DNA from: Candidatus Kuenenia stuttgartensis
GTDB lineage: Bacteria; Planctomycetota; Planctomycetia; Pirellulales; UBA1268
Assembly (NCBI GenBank): GCA_945870505.1
Contig: CAMBSN010000005.1
Coordinates: 1-60,877, forward strand
Direction: 5' to 3'
DNA: 60,877 bases
Below, piece by piece: positions 10,660 to 55,456 of the stretch (positions within the stretch are counted from its first letter, which is position 1; every line of letters begins with the position of its first letter). A program made the position numbers and the translations under genes. The notes beneath the pieces were generated by a model that was given only the letters and a program-made list of their open reading frames with translations, was not told where the DNA came from and did not search any database.

Positions 10660-10847
10660 TGGCCGGTGCAGGCTGGGCCTGAGAGCCCGCCGTCCGGGCG
10701 GGCAGCGGGTTGGCGCTGCTTGGCCGTGTGCAGGCTGGGCCTGAGGGCCCGCCGTCCGGGCGGGCCGTTGGGTGGCGGTTCTTGGCCGGGTGCAGGCTGA
10801 GCCTGAGAGCCCGCCATCCAGGAGGGCTGTTGGGTGGCGCCTCTTGC
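10660..10847 (+). repeat. Three tandem copies of a 62 bp unit
   Basis: The phrase TGGCCGG-TGCAGGCTGGGCC, then GAGAGCCCGCCGTCCGGGCGGGC, recurs with GGCTGGGC/GGCTGAGC at 10671, 10733 and 10795, a period of 62. The third copy has diverged. Each unit contains a GCCCGCC-gtcc-GGGCGGGC hairpin. The gap is 10614-11219. Further on, 10877-10896 and 10986-11000 carry the GCC-GTGAGGCGTGGG palindrome family also found at 27483-27667. No gene is seen. Confidence 0.8.
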
Positions 10848-11219
10848 GGGCTCCGCGTGATCCTCGCGTACAAGCCCAACGCCGTGAGGCGTGGGACGCG
10901 GCCAGAACAGACTCGGCATCCTCTCGACCGCGCCCGAGGCCTTACGGCCTTCGGCTTGCACGGGCGGCTACCCACTGTCCGTACAAGCCGTGAGGCGTGG
11001 GGACCAACCGCCACCACATGCCGCCGGCCGCGAGCATGTCACCGCCGGCGGCTCGCCCTTCCGTTTGATCTCGCGCCCCTTCCCGCCCCTACCAGCGCCG
11101 CCGCTCACGAAAACCCGCCGAATTTTCCCAGCGCCCTTGCAATTGCGGCGATTGACGCCAGATTTTAAGGTTCCCTAGTCCGGGCCCACCGGGCCCCCAG
11201 CCGTCCAAGGTTTCGATCC

Positions 11220-16054: not shown

Positions 16055-16165
16055 CTCGGGGCTCCCCCCGTAGCACAGGTTGTCAACCTGTGTGTCTTTC
16101 CGTTTCGCACTGCGCTCAGGGTTGCCCATGCCCCGTCGCCGGACGTTCACTGCGGGCATCCTGCC
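16055..16165 (+). repeat. 111 bp direct repeat, copy 1
   Basis: It is identical to 16218-16328 apart from one base in the palindrome core (GTCAACC against GTTAACC). Each copy has a CACAGGTT/AACCTGTG palindrome (16074-16092 here) followed by the left arm of the terminal-inverted-repeat element (GGGTTGCCCATGCCCC). The gap 16051-16491 has no supported gene. Confidence 0.9.
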
Positions 16166-16217
16166 AATCCTGTTCGGCGCGGCAGATACAGGGCGGGTCG
16201 ACTCGTATCTGGCCTGG

Positions 16218-16328
16218 CTCGGGGCTCCCCCCGTAGCACAGGTTGTTAACCTGTGTGTCTTTCCGTTTCGCACTGCGCTCAGGGTTGCCCATGCCCCGTC
16301 GCCGGACGTTCACTGCGGGCATCCTGCC
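16218..16328 (+). repeat. 111 bp direct repeat, copy 2
   Basis: This is the second copy, 163 bases after the first. Its palindrome (16237-16255) reads CACAGGTT-gtt-AACCTGTG. Only this copy continues into a complete element with a right arm. Confidence 0.9.
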
Positions 16329-16411
16329 CTCCGCTCACTCGATGCCGGCTGCGCTCTCGGCATCCTGCCTTCGCTTGCCGCCAACGCCTGCTCTCGGAGC
16401 ATGGGCAACCC
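16281..16411 (+). repeat. Terminal-inverted-repeat element, variant copy
   Basis: GGGTTGCCCATGC at 16282-16294 is the exact inverse complement of GCATGGGCAACCC at 16399-16411. The interior (CGCCGGACGTTC near the left arm and a GCCAACGCC segment near the right) aligns with the copies at 33392-33529 and 49590-49725. Confidence 0.75.
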
Positions 16412-16491
16412 CTCGCATATCCCCATCGCTCACTCGATTGGGCTTCCTGTCCCCGCGTGCGCTTTGATTGACGAGGGGTAGCGGTGCCGCT

Positions 16492-27398: not shown

Positions 27399-27687
27399 TC
27401 CAGTTCACACCGGATCCTCGCGCTCGGGTGCGAGGCGAGTGAAAGCCGACCGGCCGTGAGGCCGCGGGCGAACGACGCTGGACGCTGCGTCTGGTGGTGG
27501 TTCACCCCACGCCTTACGGCGTTGGGCTTCTGCGATGCGAGGCGAGTAGCACAGGTTTTCAACCTGTGCCGGATGTGCCGCAGGTTGAAAACCTGCGCTA
27601 CGGGAGCGCATCGCGCTAGCCGCTGCGTCTGGTGGTGGTTCACCCCACGCCTCACGGCGTTGGGCTTGGACAGGGGCGTGCCGACGA
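27399..27687. repeat. Cluster of three palindromic repeat families
   Basis: 27434-27469 is the exact inverse complement of 35609-35644 (36 bp). 27483-27529 and 27621-27667 are direct copies of a 47 bp unit with one mismatch (CGCTGCGTCTGGTGGTGG, then CACGCC-t-ACGGCGTTGGG). Between them lie CACAGGTT-ttc-AACCTGTG at 27550-27568 and GCAGGTT-gaa-AACCTGC at 27580-27596. No gene is supported. Confidence 0.85.
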
Positions 27688-32828: not shown

Positions 32829-33308
<480 letters not shown>

Positions 33309-33391: not shown

Positions 33392-33529
33392 GCGAGGGGC
33401 TGCCCGTGCCCGGGAGCCGGCGTTGCTGGCCGAGCGAAGCCACGATGGCGAAGCGAGGGCAGCATCGAGTGAGCGGATGCCACGACGGCATCCGCGAACG
33501 TCCGGCGATGGGCACGGGCAGCCCCTCGC
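33392..33529. repeat. 138 bp terminal-inverted-repeat element
   Basis: GCGAGGGGCTGCCCGTGCCC (33392-33411) is the exact inverse complement of 33510-33529, a 20 bp perfect terminal inverted repeat. Inside is a second perfect hairpin, GCGGATGCC-acgac-GGCATCCGC (33473-33495). It is the best-preserved copy in the window and has no coding capacity. It lies between glnB and the homospermidine synthase gene. Confidence 0.88.
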
Positions 33530-33605: not shown

Positions 33606-35051
33606 ATGACGAAGTGGCCCGTCCACGGCAAGATTGATGGCCCCATCGTCATGATCGGTTTTGGGTCGATCGGCCGGGGCACGCTGCCGCTGCTCGAGCG
33701 GCACTTCGAGTTCGACCGCTCCCGGCTGGTGGTCATCGACCCGGACGACAGCAGCCGTGAGATCCTCGACCGCCATGGGGTCCGGTTCATCCATCAGGCT
33801 GTGACGCCTGACCGCTACCGGCAGCTCCTCGAGCCGCTGCTCACCAGCGGCGGCCAGGGATTCTGTGTCAACCTATCCGTCGACACCTCATCGCTCGACA
33901 TCATGCGGCTCTGCCGGGAGGTGGGGGCCCTCTCCATCGACACGGTGGTTGAGCCCTGGCCGGGCTTTTATTTCGACCGTAGCGCCGGACCCGAGGCTCG
34001 TACCAACAACGCCTTGCGGTCGACCGTCCGCGAGGAGAAGGCCCGTCATCCCGGCGGCACCACCGCCGTGTCCTGCTGCGGGGCCAATCCGGGCATGGTC
34101 TCCTGGTTCGTGAAGCAGGCGCTGGTGAACCTCGCCCGTGACTGTGGCCGCAAGCTCCCCACTCCGTCCTCCGACGACCGGGCCGGCTGGGCCCGCATGA
34201 TGTGCGACCTCGGCGTCAAGGGAATCCACATCGCGGAGCGTGACACGCAGCGATCGCGAAACCCCAAGCCGATGAATGTGTTCGTCAACACGTGGTCGGT
34301 CGAAGGGTTTCTCTCCGAGGGAATGCAGCCCGCCGAGTTGGGCTGGGGCACCCATGAGAAGTGGCTGCCAGAGAACGGTCGCCTGCAGACGATCGGCGCC
34401 CGGGCCGGTGCTTACCTCCTCCAGCCCGGGGCCAACACCCGGGTGCGTTCGTGGTGCCCGACTCCCGGACCCCAGTACGGCTTCCTCGTCACCCACAACG
34501 AGTCGATTTCGATCGCCGACTACTTCACGGTGCGCAATGATTCGGCATCCGACCGTGACGGCGTTGTCTACCGGCCCACCTGCCACTACGCCTATCATCC
34601 CGCCGACGATGCCGTGCTATCCCTGCATGAGCTCTTCGGCCGGGCCGGTGTGCGCCAGGAGCGGATTCATATCCTCGACGAGAACGAGATCGTCGACGGC
34701 ATCGACGAACTGGGAGTGCTGCTCTACGGCCACGAGAAGAATGCCTACTGGTACGGTTCGCAACTCTCGATCGACGAGACTCGCGACCTGGCTCCCTACC
34801 AGAATGCCACCGGCCTCCAGGTTTCCTCCGCCGTCCTGGCGGGGATGGTGTGGGCTCTGGAAAACCCCGCCGCGGGCATCGTGGAGGCCGACGAAATGGA
34901 CTTCCAGCGATGCTTAGAGGTCCAGCGGCCTTACCTGGGGCCCGTCACCGGCCATTACACCGACTGGACGCCGCTCACCGGCCGCCCCGGGCTATTCAGT
35001 GAGAACATCGACCCCAGCGATCCCTGGCAGTTCAAGAACGTCCTCGTCTAA
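33606..35051 (+). CDS. hss: Homospermidine synthase
   Basis: This 481-residue protein starts at the ATG at 33606, with GGAG 7 bases upstream. It resembles bacterial homospermidine synthase: NAD-binding VMIGFGSIGRGTLPLL (about 15-30), VVIDPDDSS, VNLSVDTSSLDIM, DTVVEPWPGFY, CCGANPGMVSWFVKQAL, NTWSVEGFLSEGMQPAELGWGTHEKWLP, GAYLLQPGANTRVRSWCPTPGPQYGFLVTHNE and the C-terminal YLGPVTGHYTDWTPL. The enzyme makes sym-homospermidine from two putrescine molecules (or putrescine plus spermidine) using NAD+. Polyamines stabilise nucleic acids. It is preceded by the 138 bp repeat element; a promoter of its own is likely but not clearly visible. Confidence 0.95.
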   Translation: MTKWPVHGKIDGPIVMIGFGSIGRGTLPLLERHFEFDRSRLVVIDPDDSSREILDRHGVRFIHQAVTPDRYRQLLEPLLTSGGQGFCVNLSVDTSSLDIMRLCREVGALSIDTVVEPWPGFYFDRSAGPEARTNNALRSTVREEKARHPGGTTAVSCCGANPGMVSWFVKQALVNLARDCGRKLPTPSSDDRAGWARMMCDLGVKGIHIAERDTQRSRNPKPMNVFVNTWSVEGFLSEGMQPAELGWGTHEKWLPENGRLQTIGARAGAYLLQPGANTRVRSWCPTPGPQYGFLVTHNESISIADYFTVRNDSASDRDGVVYRPTCHYAYHPADDAVLSLHELFGRAGVRQERIHILDENEIVDGIDELGVLLYGHEKNAYWYGSQLSIDETRDLAPYQNATGLQVSSAVLAGMVWALENPAAGIVEADEMDFQRCLEVQRPYLGPVTGHYTDWTPLTGRPGLFSENIDPSDPWQFKNVLV

Positions 35052-35087
35052 TACGGCCCACACTTGATGCTCGCGCGTTGGAGGGCC

Positions 35088-35567
35088 ACCGCAGCCGGCC
35101 GGCGACATGCTCGGCGCCGGCGGGACGTGTGAGTTCTCGGCTCAAACGCTCCGGAGCGACCGCCGAGGGCACACGTCTCACCGGCTTCTGCGCGTGCCTC
35201 CGATCCGGCTGCTCCCCCTTCCGGAATCGCACCCGAGCCCAATGCGAACCGGAAAGACACACAGGTTGAAAACCTGTGCTACGTGATGCAGCGAGGGGCT
35301 GCCCGTGCCCGGGAGCCGGCGTTGCTCGGGCACCGATCCGCCGCCGGCGGATTGGTCGGCGCAGCCATGGATGGCGGAGCGAAGTCAGCATCGAGCGAGC
35401 GCAGGCCTGGATGCTGGGAGCCGGGCTGCGCCCGGCGACCGTAAGCCGGAGCTGACGCCGGGACGGCGGCGACGGCGTGACAGTCGCATGGGCGCAGCGA
35501 GCGTCCGGCGACGGGCATGGGTAGCCCCGAGCCTCGTGAACGCGCGAGCATCAAGTGTGAGCCGTAT
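35088..35567. repeat. Composite dispersed repeat, copy 2
   Basis: 35088-35283 repeats 353-573, including the palindrome CACAGGTT-gaa-AACCTGTG at 35260-35278. It is followed by a terminal-inverted-repeat element with GCGAGGGGCTGCCCGTGCCC at 35291-35310 and a degraded right arm near 35513-35533. The shared end CCCCGAGCCTCGTGAACGC, then GTGAGCCGT, matches 597-637. The D-family 36 bp unit lies at 35609-35644. The gap 35052-35801 holds no supported gene. Confidence 0.85.
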
Positions 35568-35801
35568 AACACGGGTCACGCTTAAAGCGGGCCCCATCGC
35601 GAGGGGACGCCCGCGGCCTCACGGCCGGTCGGCTTTCACTCGCCAGGCACTCGAGTGTTGGCGAAGCCGGCCGCCTGCAGCCCGGGGTTTTGCCGTGCTG
35701 CGACCCGATCGTTGTGGAGCCAGGATGGCCTGCTACCCTTGTCGAACTCGATTCATCGTTCGCCTCCGGAAGCGTTTTCCGCCGGGGTTGAGAGAGTTTC
35801 C

Positions 35802-37919
35802 ATGCGCTGCATCCTGGTCGTTGTCGTCGTGCTCGCGTCACTCGGGTGGTCGGCCTCTGCCACCGCCCAGCTGCGGATCGTCAGCTACAACGTCAACAAC
35901 AGCGACCCCGCCGCCTTCGGGCCGCGGACCGGCATGGACGCAGTGTTTCGCGGGATGAACGCGTCGGCGAAGGGGGGCTTCGCCAGGGCGATCGACGTGC
36001 TGATCCTGGAGGAGGCCGAGTCGGTCGCCACGACCGGCACCGCCTACGCGGCCCTGCTCAACACCGTCACTGCGGGAACGTCGTACCAGCGATCGACGGT
36101 GGATGCGGGCTCGACCGGATCGGGACGCCCCATCGCCATCTACAACTCGTCGTCGGTATCGCTGATCGCCGAGAAGAAGATCGGGTCGACTTCGGGCGCT
36201 GCCAGCCAACCCAGGCAGACGATGCGATATCAGTTCCGGCCCGTCGGCTATGGCACGACCGCCGACTTCTATGTGTACGCCAGCCACTACAAGGCATCGA
36301 CGGGCGGCGCAAACGAGGCGGAGCGAAACGTGGAGGCCCGCGCGATCCGCGCTGATGCCGATGCGATCGGGCAGGGGGCGAGCATCATCTACGCCGGTGA
36401 CCTCAACTTCTACACGTCGAGTGAGTCCGGGTTCCAAACGCTCACCGGTACGGGGAACGGGCAGGCCTTTGATCCCATCAGCCGCGTCGGCTCGTGGAGC
36501 GGCAGCACGACCTACAAAGACGTCCACACCCAGTCGCCGGCCACGACGGGCGTGTTCAACGGTCAGGTAACGGGAGGGATGGACGATCGGTTCGACTTCC
36601 AACTGATCACCGATGAGGTCCGTGATGGAGGCGGGTTCGACTACATCGCGGGCTCCTACTGGGCGTTTGGCAACACCGCGACCCATGCGATCAACCAGGC
36701 AATTTCGACCGGCAGCGCCGCCACGCTGGCCGCACGTATTCCAGGCTATACGACGACCCAGGCCCAGACGGTGCTCACGAGTCTCACGCAGGTCACCGAC
36801 CACCTACCTGTGCTGGCCGATTATCAACTACCGGCGAAAATGACGGCGACGCTCGCAGCGCTCCCGGCCCGGGTGATCCGCGGTGGGACGGTCTCGGCCA
36901 CGCTGACGGTGGCCAACTCCGCCCCTGTCGCGGTCGCGGCCGGAGCAGACCAGCTCGACTACGCCTATACGGCAGCGGGCGCGGTGGCCGCGAGCGGCAC
37001 GGGGAGCGACGCCGCACTCGGGGCGTCGAACACACACGTGCTCAACCTCACGACCGCATCGGTGGGCCTGCGGAGCGGTACGGTGGGCGTGATCGCCTCG
37101 AGTCCGCAGGCGATGAGCCCCACGTTCAGCGGCACGATTTCCACAAGCGTCCTTGATCACGCGATTGGCTCGTTCGCCTCTGCGGCGACAACGACGTCGC
37201 TGACGATCGACTTCGGCACGCTGATCCGTGGTGGCGCCCCGGGGAGCAGTTCCTTTACGCTCTTCAACCGGCCGGCAGCCTCGGGCACGGCGTGGACCGC
37301 GAAGCTCGACCTCGACGGGGTGTCTTCCACCGCTCCCGCGGGCGTGTTCTCGACCACGCTGGCCCCGCTCGCGAACCTGGCGTCGGGGTCGTCGCGCGGC
37401 TACGCGGCGTCGATGGGATCGGGCACGGCCGGCACCTTTTCCGGCACCTACACGCTCGCCCTGTCCGACGAAGACCTCCCCGGGGCGGTGTTCCAGCAAC
37501 TCTCGCTTGCGGTTCTGGGGAGCGTGATCCCCCCTGCCACAGGCGACACCAACTTCGACGCCTTCGTTGACTTGATTGACGCGGGGAACGTGCTTGCCGC
37601 CAGGCGATACGACACCGGAGAACTCGCCACCTGGAGCGAGGGCGATTTCAACGCCGACCAGGTGGTGGACATTCTCGACATCAGCGACTTACTCGGGGCG
37701 GATCTCTACGACCAGGGAGACTACCGGCCGCTCGTCGCCGGGTTGGGGCACCTCGGAGCCGTGGCGGCCGTGCCCGAACCGTCGACATCGGTGCTCGTCA
37801 GCGCAGCCCTGGCGGTGGTGGCGGTGCTCGGGTCGCGAAGGGTTTCGCGGCGGATCAGGCCGGGAGCGGACGCGTCATCTCCACCGGCACGACCCACTGG
37901 TCGTACTGCTCCGGCGTGA
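35802..37919 (+). CDS. Secreted endonuclease/exonuclease/phosphatase protein, PEP-CTERM
   Basis: This 705-residue protein starts at the ATG at 35802, just after GAGAGAG. It has a signal peptide to about residue 22. An EEP-fold domain (24-345) has the expected active-site motifs: [27 protein letters not shown] and [10 protein letters not shown]. Then come beta-rich repeats, a dockerin-like segment (about 581-640, [17 protein letters not shown] and [19 protein letters not shown], with calcium-loop Asp and Asn residues), and a C-terminal PEP-CTERM sorting signal (VPEPS at 657-661, a hydrophobic helix and an Arg-rich tail). It is likely a cell-surface or matrix nuclease or phosphatase. Its 3' end overlaps fumC by 65 bases on the opposite strand. 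Confidence 0.88.
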
Positions 37920-48106: not shown

Positions 48107-49567
48107 TTACGCAAGGATCGGCTTCACGACCTTCGCTGGTTCGACGCCGGTGAGCTTTGCGTCGAGCCCCATGAAGGGGAACGTGAACCGCATGGGGTCG
48201 ATGCCGAGTAGGTGCAGCATCGTGGCGTGCAGGTCGCGGACGTTCACGGGATCGGCGACCGCGAAGTAGCCAAACTCGTCGGTGGCGCCGTGGGTGACGC
48301 CTCCTTTGATGCCGCCGCCGGCGAGCACCATGCTGAAGCCCTTGATGTGGTGGTCGCGGCCGATCTTGTTGCCCTCTCCTTGCCCCATCGGCGTCCGCCC
48401 GAACTCGCCGCCGATCACCATCAGCGTGTCGTCGAGCATGCCGCGGCGGGCGAGGTCGGCGAGGAGGCCGGCCGCGGCGGTGTCGGTGGGCGGGCAGATC
48501 TCCTGCATGAAGCCGTCGATGCCGCTGTGGTGGTCCCAGTCGCTGGCGTAGACGTGCACGAACCGCACGCCCCGCTCCACGAGCCGCCGGGCCATGAGGC
48601 AGTTGGTGCCAACCGTCGCCGTGCCCGGGTCGGCGCCGTAGAGGGCGAGCGTCTCGGGCGTCTCGTCGGAAAGGTCGGCGAGCGTGGGCACGCTGGTCTG
48701 CATTCGGAAGGCGAGTTCATACTGCTTGATCCGCGTGGCCACGTCGGGGTCGTGGAGCGAGGTGAGCCGATGCCGCTCGAGCGCCGCGACGGTGTCGATC
48801 AGGTCGCGCTGCTGGGCCGCCGTCACGCCCGGCGGATTGGCGACGTAGTGCACCGGGGCGCCACTGGTCGCGAACTCGACGCCCTGAAACTGGCCCGGAA
48901 GAAAGCCCGAGTGCCACTGACGGGCAGCGATTGGCTGCGGGTTGCGGCCGAGCTTGCTCGTCATCACCACGAAGCCCGGCAGGTTGTCAGCCTCGCTGCC
49001 GAGGCCGTAGGTCACCCAGGCCCCCATGCTCGGCCGACCGGAGAGGGCAGTGCCGCAGTTCATGAACGTGTGCGCGGGATCGTGGTTGATCTGCTCGGTC
49101 ACCATGCTCCGCACGATGGCATACGAGTCGGCGAGCGCCCCGAGTTTCGGGAAGAAGTCGCTCACCTCCGCGCCGCAGGTCCCGTAACGGGAGAACTTCG
49201 TCCGGGGCCCGAGGCAGATCAACTTCTTGCCCTGCAGCTGTGCGATCGGCTGACCGGCCGTCACGCTCTCGGGCATCTCCTGACCGTCGAGTTCCGTGAG
49301 CTTTGGTTTCGGGTCGAACGTCTCGAGGTGGCTCGGGCCACCCGCCAGGCACAGGAAGATCACCGCCTTCGCCTTGGGCGCGTGGTGTCGCGGGAAAACG
49401 GCGCCGGGATAGTGGTCGCTGGCGAGCGACGTCGGTGCGGAAACCGCGGCCAGCCCGTCGCGGGCGAGCAGTCCCGATAGCGCGGCGCCGCCGAGCGACA
49501 GGCCCGATCGGGCGAGAAACGTGCGGCGGTGGATCGAAAGGTCGGGCATCTGGTTCGGCTCACTCAT
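48107..49567 (-). CDS. DUF1501 sulfatase-like exported protein
   Basis: This 486-residue protein begins with a Tat signal (LSIHRRTFLARSGLSLGGAALSGLLA). It is a typical DUF1501 protein of the alkaline-phosphatase-like superfamily: AVIFLCLAGGPSHLETFDPKP, EVSDFFPKLGALAD, NHDPAHTFMNCG, RFVHVYASDWDHHSGIDGFM, LMVIGGEFGRTPMGQGEGNKIGRDHH and DLHATMLHLLGID. Such genes are nearly always partnered with a DUF1549/DUF1553 cytochrome gene (here 49809-52283). The function is unknown but is thought to involve sugar or polymer breakdown. The two genes are normally adjacent; here 241 bases of repeats separate them. Confidence 0.94.
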   Translation of the reverse strand: MSEPNQMPDLSIHRRTFLARSGLSLGGAALSGLLARDGLAAVSAPTSLASDHYPGAVFPRHHAPKAKAVIFLCLAGGPSHLETFDPKPKLTELDGQEMPESVTAGQPIAQLQGKKLICLGPRTKFSRYGTCGAEVSDFFPKLGALADSYAIVRSMVTEQINHDPAHTFMNCGTALSGRPSMGAWVTYGLGSEADNLPGFVVMTSKLGRNPQPIAARQWHSGFLPGQFQGVEFATSGAPVHYVANPPGVTAAQQRDLIDTVAALERHRLTSLHDPDVATRIKQYELAFRMQTSVPTLADLSDETPETLALYGADPGTATVGTNCLMARRLVERGVRFVHVYASDWDHHSGIDGFMQEICPPTDTAAAGLLADLARRGMLDDTLMVIGGEFGRTPMGQGEGNKIGRDHHIKGFSMVLAGGGIKGGVTHGATDEFGYFAVADPVNVRDLHATMLHLLGIDPMRFTFPFMGLDAKLTGVEPAKVVKPILA

Positions 49568-49589
49568 GAATCGGAGGCGTTCTTGAGGC

Positions 49590-49725
49590 GCGGGGCTGCC
49601 CATGCCCCGTCGCCGGACGTTCGCTTCGGGCATCCTGCCCTTCGCTCGCTCGATGCTGCCTGCGCTCCGCCATCCATGGCTGCGCTGGTCAGCAACGCCG
49701 GCTCCCGGGGCACGGGCAGCCCCGC
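49590..49725. repeat. 136 bp terminal-inverted-repeat element
   Basis: GCGGGGCTGCCCATGCCCC (49590-49608) pairs with 49707-49725 at 18 of 19 positions. The interior is the inverse complement of 33412-33509 in outline: GCCGGACGTTCGC near the left arm and AGCAACGCCGGCTCCC near the right. A CACAGGTT-ttc-AACCTGTG palindrome follows at 49754-49772. Confidence 0.85.
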
Positions 49726-49808
49726 ATCTGGCCTGGCGCGGTGCCCCCCGTAGCACAGGTTTTCAACCTGTGTCTGTCCATCGCGGCGGCTCGCGTGTGT
49801 CATCGTGC

Positions 49809-55270: not shown

Positions 55271-55306
55271 TGACTCAGGTGGCCGGCCTTCCGGGCCGGC
55301 TGGATC

Positions 55307-55456
55307 GCGGGTTTTCAACCTGCGCTACGTGAGGAGCGTTTGATGCGCCCCGTAGCCGCAGGTTGGTAACCTGCGGGAGCTTTGGCACAGGTTGCCAACC
55401 TGTGCTACGTGAGGAGCGTTTGATGCGCCACGTAGCCGCAGGTTGGTAACCTGCGG
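55307..55456. repeat. Cluster of CACAGGTT/CGCAGGTT palindromes
   Basis: Four palindromes lie in 150 bases: a degenerate one at 55307-55324, CCGCAGGTT-ggt-AACCTGCGG at 55356-55376 and again at 55436-55456, and CACAGGTT-gcc-AACCTGTG at 55386-55404. The segment CTACGTGAGGAGCGTTTGAT, then GCCGCAGG..., is directly repeated with an offset of 80. The gap 55234-55504 has no gene apart from the terminator. Confidence 0.85.

Follow-up and report, generated by a model that had tools for sequence, protein, structure and literature searches.

Introduction

Small extragenic repeats of bacteria are usually attributed to RAYT or IS transposases. Several kinds have been described in detail. REPs are enriched in convergent gaps and rare in divergent gaps, as is the planctomycete repeat described here, and planctomycetes are already known to have GTAG REPs (PMC3733652). 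For the ERIC/IRU elements, an orientation-dependent effect on mRNA has been reported (PMC2229807), and the BOX element is known to grow by internal modules (PMC3049150).

Results

A folded repeat between two genes

We analyzed a window of 60,877 nucleotides (the whole stretch of DNA, contig CAMBSN010000005.1), in which the original prediction had marked positions 33392-33529 as a non-coding element with perfect 20-bp terminal inverted repeats, a perfect 9-bp internal hairpin and several related copies. The 20-bp arms are indeed perfect and become 21 pairs once folded, the 9-bp hairpin lies at 33473-33495, and no gene call overlaps the copy. To its left, a short gene ends at 33308, and to its right, a homospermidine-synthase-like gene begins at 33606. 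The latter has saccharopine-dehydrogenase domains, and its closest named relatives are found in Planctomycetota MAGs (e.g., JAGWWA010000003). In the predicted fold, a closing stem of 21 bp encloses two hairpin arms:

33392-33529, + strand: full repeat copy in sense orientation, 138 nt
33392-33412, + strand: 5' arm of the closing stem P1 (predicted fold)
33509-33529, + strand: 3' arm of the closing stem P1 (predicted fold)
33416-33420, + strand: 5' side of the inner stem P1b, GCCGG, partner of 33502-33506
33502-33506, + strand: 3' side of the inner stem P1b, CCGGC, partner of 33416-33420
33421-33467, + strand: P2 arm, a hairpin with a GNA/GNA-type internal loop and covarying pairs
33469-33499, + strand: P3 arm, with covarying pairs and including the perfect 9-bp hairpin

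The sense strand of this copy folds at -107.1 kcal/mol, compared to -63.9 kcal/mol for 200 dinucleotide shuffles (z -10.4); the opposite strand reaches z -9.4.

Every related copy named in the original prediction is real, including the half copy given as 584-600, which is a 3' remnant, and there is one further 3'-half copy (16114-16167):

49588-49725, - strand: second full copy
16277-16416, - strand: full copy between convergent genes
16114-16167, - strand: 3'-half copy inside a 163-bp tandem duplication
35291-35533, + strand: expanded copy with inserted hairpins in P2 and P3
581-605, + strand: 3'-end remnant within a mosaic array (ends approximate)
49743-49773, - strand: associated REP of GTAG type (CACAGGTTGAAAACCTGTGCTAC), located upstream of the copy at 49588

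Mosaic arrays house most copies of the ~140-bp repeat, and some arrays hold two copies with a 191-bp period. Two related mosaic blocks lie in the window, at 318-638 and 35045-35573, the second with 35-bp inverted ends (TAATACGGCCCACACTTGATGCTCGCGCG...). The motif TCACACNTGATC is found at some array ends (5 sites, 0.2 expected). Separately, positions 10666-10851 of the window comprise three 62-bp tandem units with inner hairpins, the later two 87% and 77% identical to the first. The relative L081 lacks a segment of ~2.8 kb (window 35048-37850) that holds the expanded repeat copy and the gene for a PEP-CTERM protein; the genes flanking this segment are adjacent in L081.

One strand's fold is conserved

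The copies share a fold with an outer stem (~20 bp), an inner stem (GCCGG/CCGGC) and two arms. Both arms have an internal loop that resembles GNA/GNA and end in a small loop of AGGAT type. Both bases have changed in 32 of the 47 pairs and 96.7% of the pair cells are standard, figures flattered by an alignment that had been fitted to the fold model; with slid partners as a control, pairing falls to 26-43%. G-T (125) far exceeds A-C (23), and the same holds for the outer stem alone (92 versus 9). Given that an inverted repeat under neutral decay is expected to acquire G-T and A-C equally, this imbalance argues that one strand is selected for pairing. The sense strand folds better than its complement in 61 of 61 copies with DNA parameters and in 60 of 61 with RNA parameters. 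At the level of sequence, these patterns demonstrate that the conserved entity is the pairing of one strand, a predicted three-way-junction fold kept by compensatory changes.

In the outer stem, positions 3-4 carry either a true complement or GA opposite GA, and the GA/GA step would fit sheared G-A pairs. The ends of the repeat read GCGAGGGG.../...CCCC(TC or GA)GC. The arms can grow, as seen at 35291-35533, which has additional hairpins within both. No family of Rfam 15 scores above its gathering threshold in the window (best score 18.7 bits, threshold 52).

Copy number and distribution

"Several copies" proved an understatement. Using a profile of 30 copies, we detected 61 copies of full length across 1.147 Mb of this genome, the part of the 3.35-Mb assembly from which all copy statistics for this genome are drawn. 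When two contigs picked for having copies are removed, 55 remain in 1.107 Mb, which corresponds to ~50 full copies per Mb and an estimated ~165 copies in the 3.35-Mb MAG. The other 21 genus genomes all have the repeat, and it is abundant in 22 of 22. A covariance model run over 146 genomes of the order detected it in 21, all belonging to one family (21 of the 23 sampled genomes of that family, from 10 genera, G022 and G023 being the two that lack it), and in none of the ~120 sampled genomes from the order's other families. Searches of plasmids and phages also returned no match. Given this restriction to one planctomycete family and the lack of plasmid or phage matches, inheritance within the family is the simplest reading.

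Filled and empty sites

Between close relatives, exact gene junctions differ in having or lacking the repeat, which demonstrates mobility at the site level. One such junction in the window is:

49550-49806, - strand: block of ~257 bp made up of the repeat, a GTAG-type REP and end sequence, which three close relatives lack

In these three relatives, one of which is ~95% identical at the locus, the stop and start codons nearly touch (TATTGAGC-ATG). As all three lack the block, the simplest reading is that this lineage gained it. The block shows no clear duplication.

At the junction of nuoD and nuoE (names assigned from translations), the genes overlap at ATGA in eight genomes, and at least nine genomes carry the repeat with an outer stem particular to this locus (GGACGGGG / CCCCGTCC). 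In these orthologous copies, 91% of the cells still pair and 23 double changes are seen, while the flanks diverge. Presence of the repeat is scattered on the gene tree, which implies either repeated gain or precise loss; the ATGA on both sides would permit the latter. Interior types vary among the orthologous copies, suggesting that sequence exchange occurs between repeat copies. In the search for target-site duplications, the inserted blocks exceed the repeat, and the only candidate was the ATGA at nuoD-nuoE, which is required there by the codons anyway. The junction (L045:3013-3144, G000:C4:63013; L294-L318) is also a small hot spot for three unrelated kinds of palindromic insertion, which differ by species: the main repeat, a AAAAATGGGGACGGGAGCGATTT palindrome (G015) and a AAAAGGTGCC type (G014).

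The original prediction of a folded, non-coding, multi-copy repeat of mobile type is thus upheld by copy number and empty sites. It had held that few copies, or copies in syntenic positions only, would argue against mobility; copies are numerous and mostly at differing places, the nuoD-nuoE site being common to several species.

Genomic position and replication polarity

Copies keep clear of the promoter regions that separate divergent genes and are enriched at the 3' side of convergent ones. None of the 57 intergenic copies is in a divergent gap, compared to 130 of 594 gaps overall (p about 1e-6), and 26 of the 57 are in convergent gaps, compared to 98 of 594 (p 3e-7). The exception is genome G018, in which 4 of 8 copies lie between divergent genes.

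Copies in tandem gaps initially appeared to follow the sense of the genes (16 of 18 in the first 453 kb), but the ratio weakened to 21:10 (p 0.07) in a 2.5x larger sample and is near even in relatives (1:1, 4:6 and 5:4; 9:10 for G009 and G123 together). Gene-sense orientation was rejected, and as its signal faded in the larger sample, replication polarity took over as the reading. Orientation is opposite in sign to the local GC skew for 48 of the 61 copies in this genome (p about 3e-4 by random flips of whole contigs), and this polarity persists after correction for the coding strand. Across four genomes, it holds for 83 of 106 copies. G009 repeats it (19 of 22), and G018 (6 of 8) and G123 (10 of 15) show the same trend, which is non-significant in G123 alone and significant in G018 only without the contig correction. 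The GTAG REP, where it is located away from the main repeat, has no replication polarity.

The G-rich strand is usually the leading strand. The genes rpoB, rpoC, groEL, infB and most of the ribosomal genes found are on the G-rich strand (one exception, rpsL). Combined with the skew polarity, this gene placement indicates that the better-folding strand is mostly off the lagging-strand template; it tends to lie on the C-rich strand, which is the nascent lagging strand, i.e., the leading-strand template. The polarity could arise if insertion favors one strand, or if deletion preferentially removes the opposite orientation.

A GTAG REP neighbor and the search for a mobilizer

The neighboring repeat CACAGGTT-AACCTGTG-CTAC is a reversed GTAG-tagged REP, located ~7-10 nt upstream of the main repeat and often downstream too. 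This REP (GTAGCACAGGTTTTCAACCTGTG) has 126 copies in the 1.147 Mb, only 2 of them in divergent gaps, and is found in the window at 539-577, 16057-16093, 16220-16256, 27533-27606, 35249-35287, 49737-49773 and 55295-55456.

Two Y1_Tnp genes are encoded in this genome, both flanked by other repeats. Across the 22 genus genomes, we found 11 Y1_Tnp (RAYT-like) loci, and neither the main repeat nor the GTAG REP occurs in the flanks inspected (about 1.5 kb per side, shorter near contig ends). Y1_Tnp was undetected in 13 of the 22 genomes, though the repeat is abundant there; MAG incompleteness weakens single absences, and several of these genomes are 95-97% complete. On these two counts, a RAYT was rejected as the mobilizer. 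A reverse transcriptase was also rejected, as only 5 of the 22 genomes yielded one and the genome analyzed here is not among them. Across 2.3 Mb from four genomes, no paired end fragments of the repeat flank any gene or transposase.

The check advised in the original prediction, to look for a RAYT or transposase gene flanked by the same ends, led to no such gene, and neither label offered there is supported. The REPIN label fails on the 11 RAYT-like loci without these ends and the 13 genomes without detected Y1_Tnp; the REPIN architecture (two inverted REPs of 20-25 nt with a GTAG-type head) is also lacking, the GTAG belonging to the separate neighbor. As for the MITE label, the repeat has terminal inverted repeats, is non-coding and is below 200 bp, but it is GC-rich, with no assignable duplication, no TA ends and, in the 2.3 Mb searched, no transposase bearing its ends. 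The repeat does have the general features of small interspersed palindromic repeats, namely dispersed extragenic copies, a conserved fold and presence or absence at sites.

The RAYT-like gene at L031:1130-1950 has an inverted AAAAAGGTGCCAGCCACCAAATCTGGGTA repeat on its flanks. A second, at L032:590-1560, sits among CCAACGCCGTRAGGCGT REPs, which also occur in the window (10868-10895 and 27644-27671), making this gene a candidate RAYT for that REP.

Discussion

We give a probability of about one half to the reading that this is a non-autonomous small interspersed repeat of ~140 nt, restricted to one family, that is handled in single-stranded form at replication forks and is tolerated or used as a structured RNA. 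It would spread or be retained via single-stranded DNA at the forks, moving alone or as a block with the neighboring GTAG REP, and the handling enzyme would be none of those recognized here. Insertions would be found where strong folding of a transcript harms least or helps mildly. The active strand in IS608-type transposition is the lagging-strand template, and a mechanism of that type should have conserved the opposite strand, which counts against this reading. A narrower version, in which an enzyme other than RAYT/IS200 or reverse transcriptase recognizes the three-way junction and moves the folded single strand at forks, we regard as doubtful. Slightly better placed, although still on the unlikely side, is the possibility that insertion is unbiased and that the polarity arises secondarily, through replication-linked loss of copies with their more stable hairpin on the lagging-strand template. 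It is in line with the sense strand forming the stabler hairpin in each of the 61 copies and being mostly off that template, and deletion between the direct ATGA repeats at nuoD-nuoE could restore the gene overlap precisely, but the gene tree there is compatible with gain as well as loss.

BIME/REP and ERIC sequences reportedly act on transcripts by blocking exonucleases or recruiting a nuclease. If the planctomycete repeat were a cis-acting host RNA whose transcribed fold sets flanking transcript levels in this way, then the tolerance of G-U and the better folding on the sense strand, the divergent gaps without copies and the kept pairing of the nuoD-nuoE copy (91% of cells, 23 double changes) between diverging flanks would all be expected. 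We nevertheless consider it unlikely, given the tandem-gap orientation of only 21:10 (p 0.07) and 9:10 in G009 plus G123, the many copies in convergent gaps in either orientation, and the lack of the nuoD-nuoE copy in at least eight genus genomes. Movement in trans by a RAYT acting on single-stranded hairpins, as for a REPIN, is largely refuted: the GTAG-tagged REP often 7-10 nt away, the pair of Y1_Tnp genes in this genome and a polarity consistent with a single-strand mechanism are outweighed by 11 RAYT-like loci with neither repeat in their flanks, by copy-rich genomes without detected Y1_Tnp (13 of 22, several at least 95% complete) and by the lack of polarity of the REP away from the repeat. 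Equally improbable is a classic MITE, a deletion derivative of a DNA transposon with a transposase binding its terminal inverted repeats. The inverted repeats of ~20 bp, the high copy number and the empty sites agree with it, but the repeat's ends show no assignable duplication, the inserted blocks being larger than the repeat, end fragments flank no transposase in the 2.3 Mb, and plasmids and phages have no matches. Moreover, the arms are often GA/GA rather than complementary, which is odd for transposase-bound inverted repeats, and the entire interior fold is conserved, beyond the ends.

The family is abundant and vertically kept, and combines a conserved one-strand fold with a measurable link to replication direction, yet has no recognizable mobilizer. 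Two questions thereby become accessible to testing: the identity of the handling enzyme, and whether hairpin repeats in bacterial genomes owe their orientation to insertion or to deletion linked to replication.

Among known systems, the ERIC/IRU elements of enterobacteria (about 127 bp) are alike in size, in being non-coding, palindromic and intergenic, and in their transcribed-type positions. There is no detected sequence relation (no Rfam match), and the planctomycete repeat differs in its 21-bp closing stem, two covarying arms, GC richness, lack of TA ends and of an assigned duplication, and in its measured replication polarity. With REP/BIME and REPIN plus RAYT systems (GTAG- and CGTC-tagged), it shares high copy number, GT stem pairs and frequent clustering, and a true GTAG-type REP adjoins many of its copies; unlike them, it has a three-way-junction fold of ~140 nt instead of a 20-40-nt hairpin, and lacks both a GTAG/CGTC head and a RAYT bearing its ends. 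Bacterial MITEs such as Correia/NEMIS and RUP (PMC2229807) are similar in their terminal inverted repeats, length below 200 bp, non-autonomy and empty sites, but the assigned target duplication, TA ends, A+T richness and matching IS of those elements are missing here. The BOX/SPRITE repeats of pneumococcus (PMC3049150) are likewise folded, modular and enriched in convergent gaps; their sequence is unrelated, and the planctomycete repeat is confined to one family. The repeat is a member of no family tested, and is a real, high-copy, family-specific structured repeat, a variant of the REP/ERIC/MITE kind.
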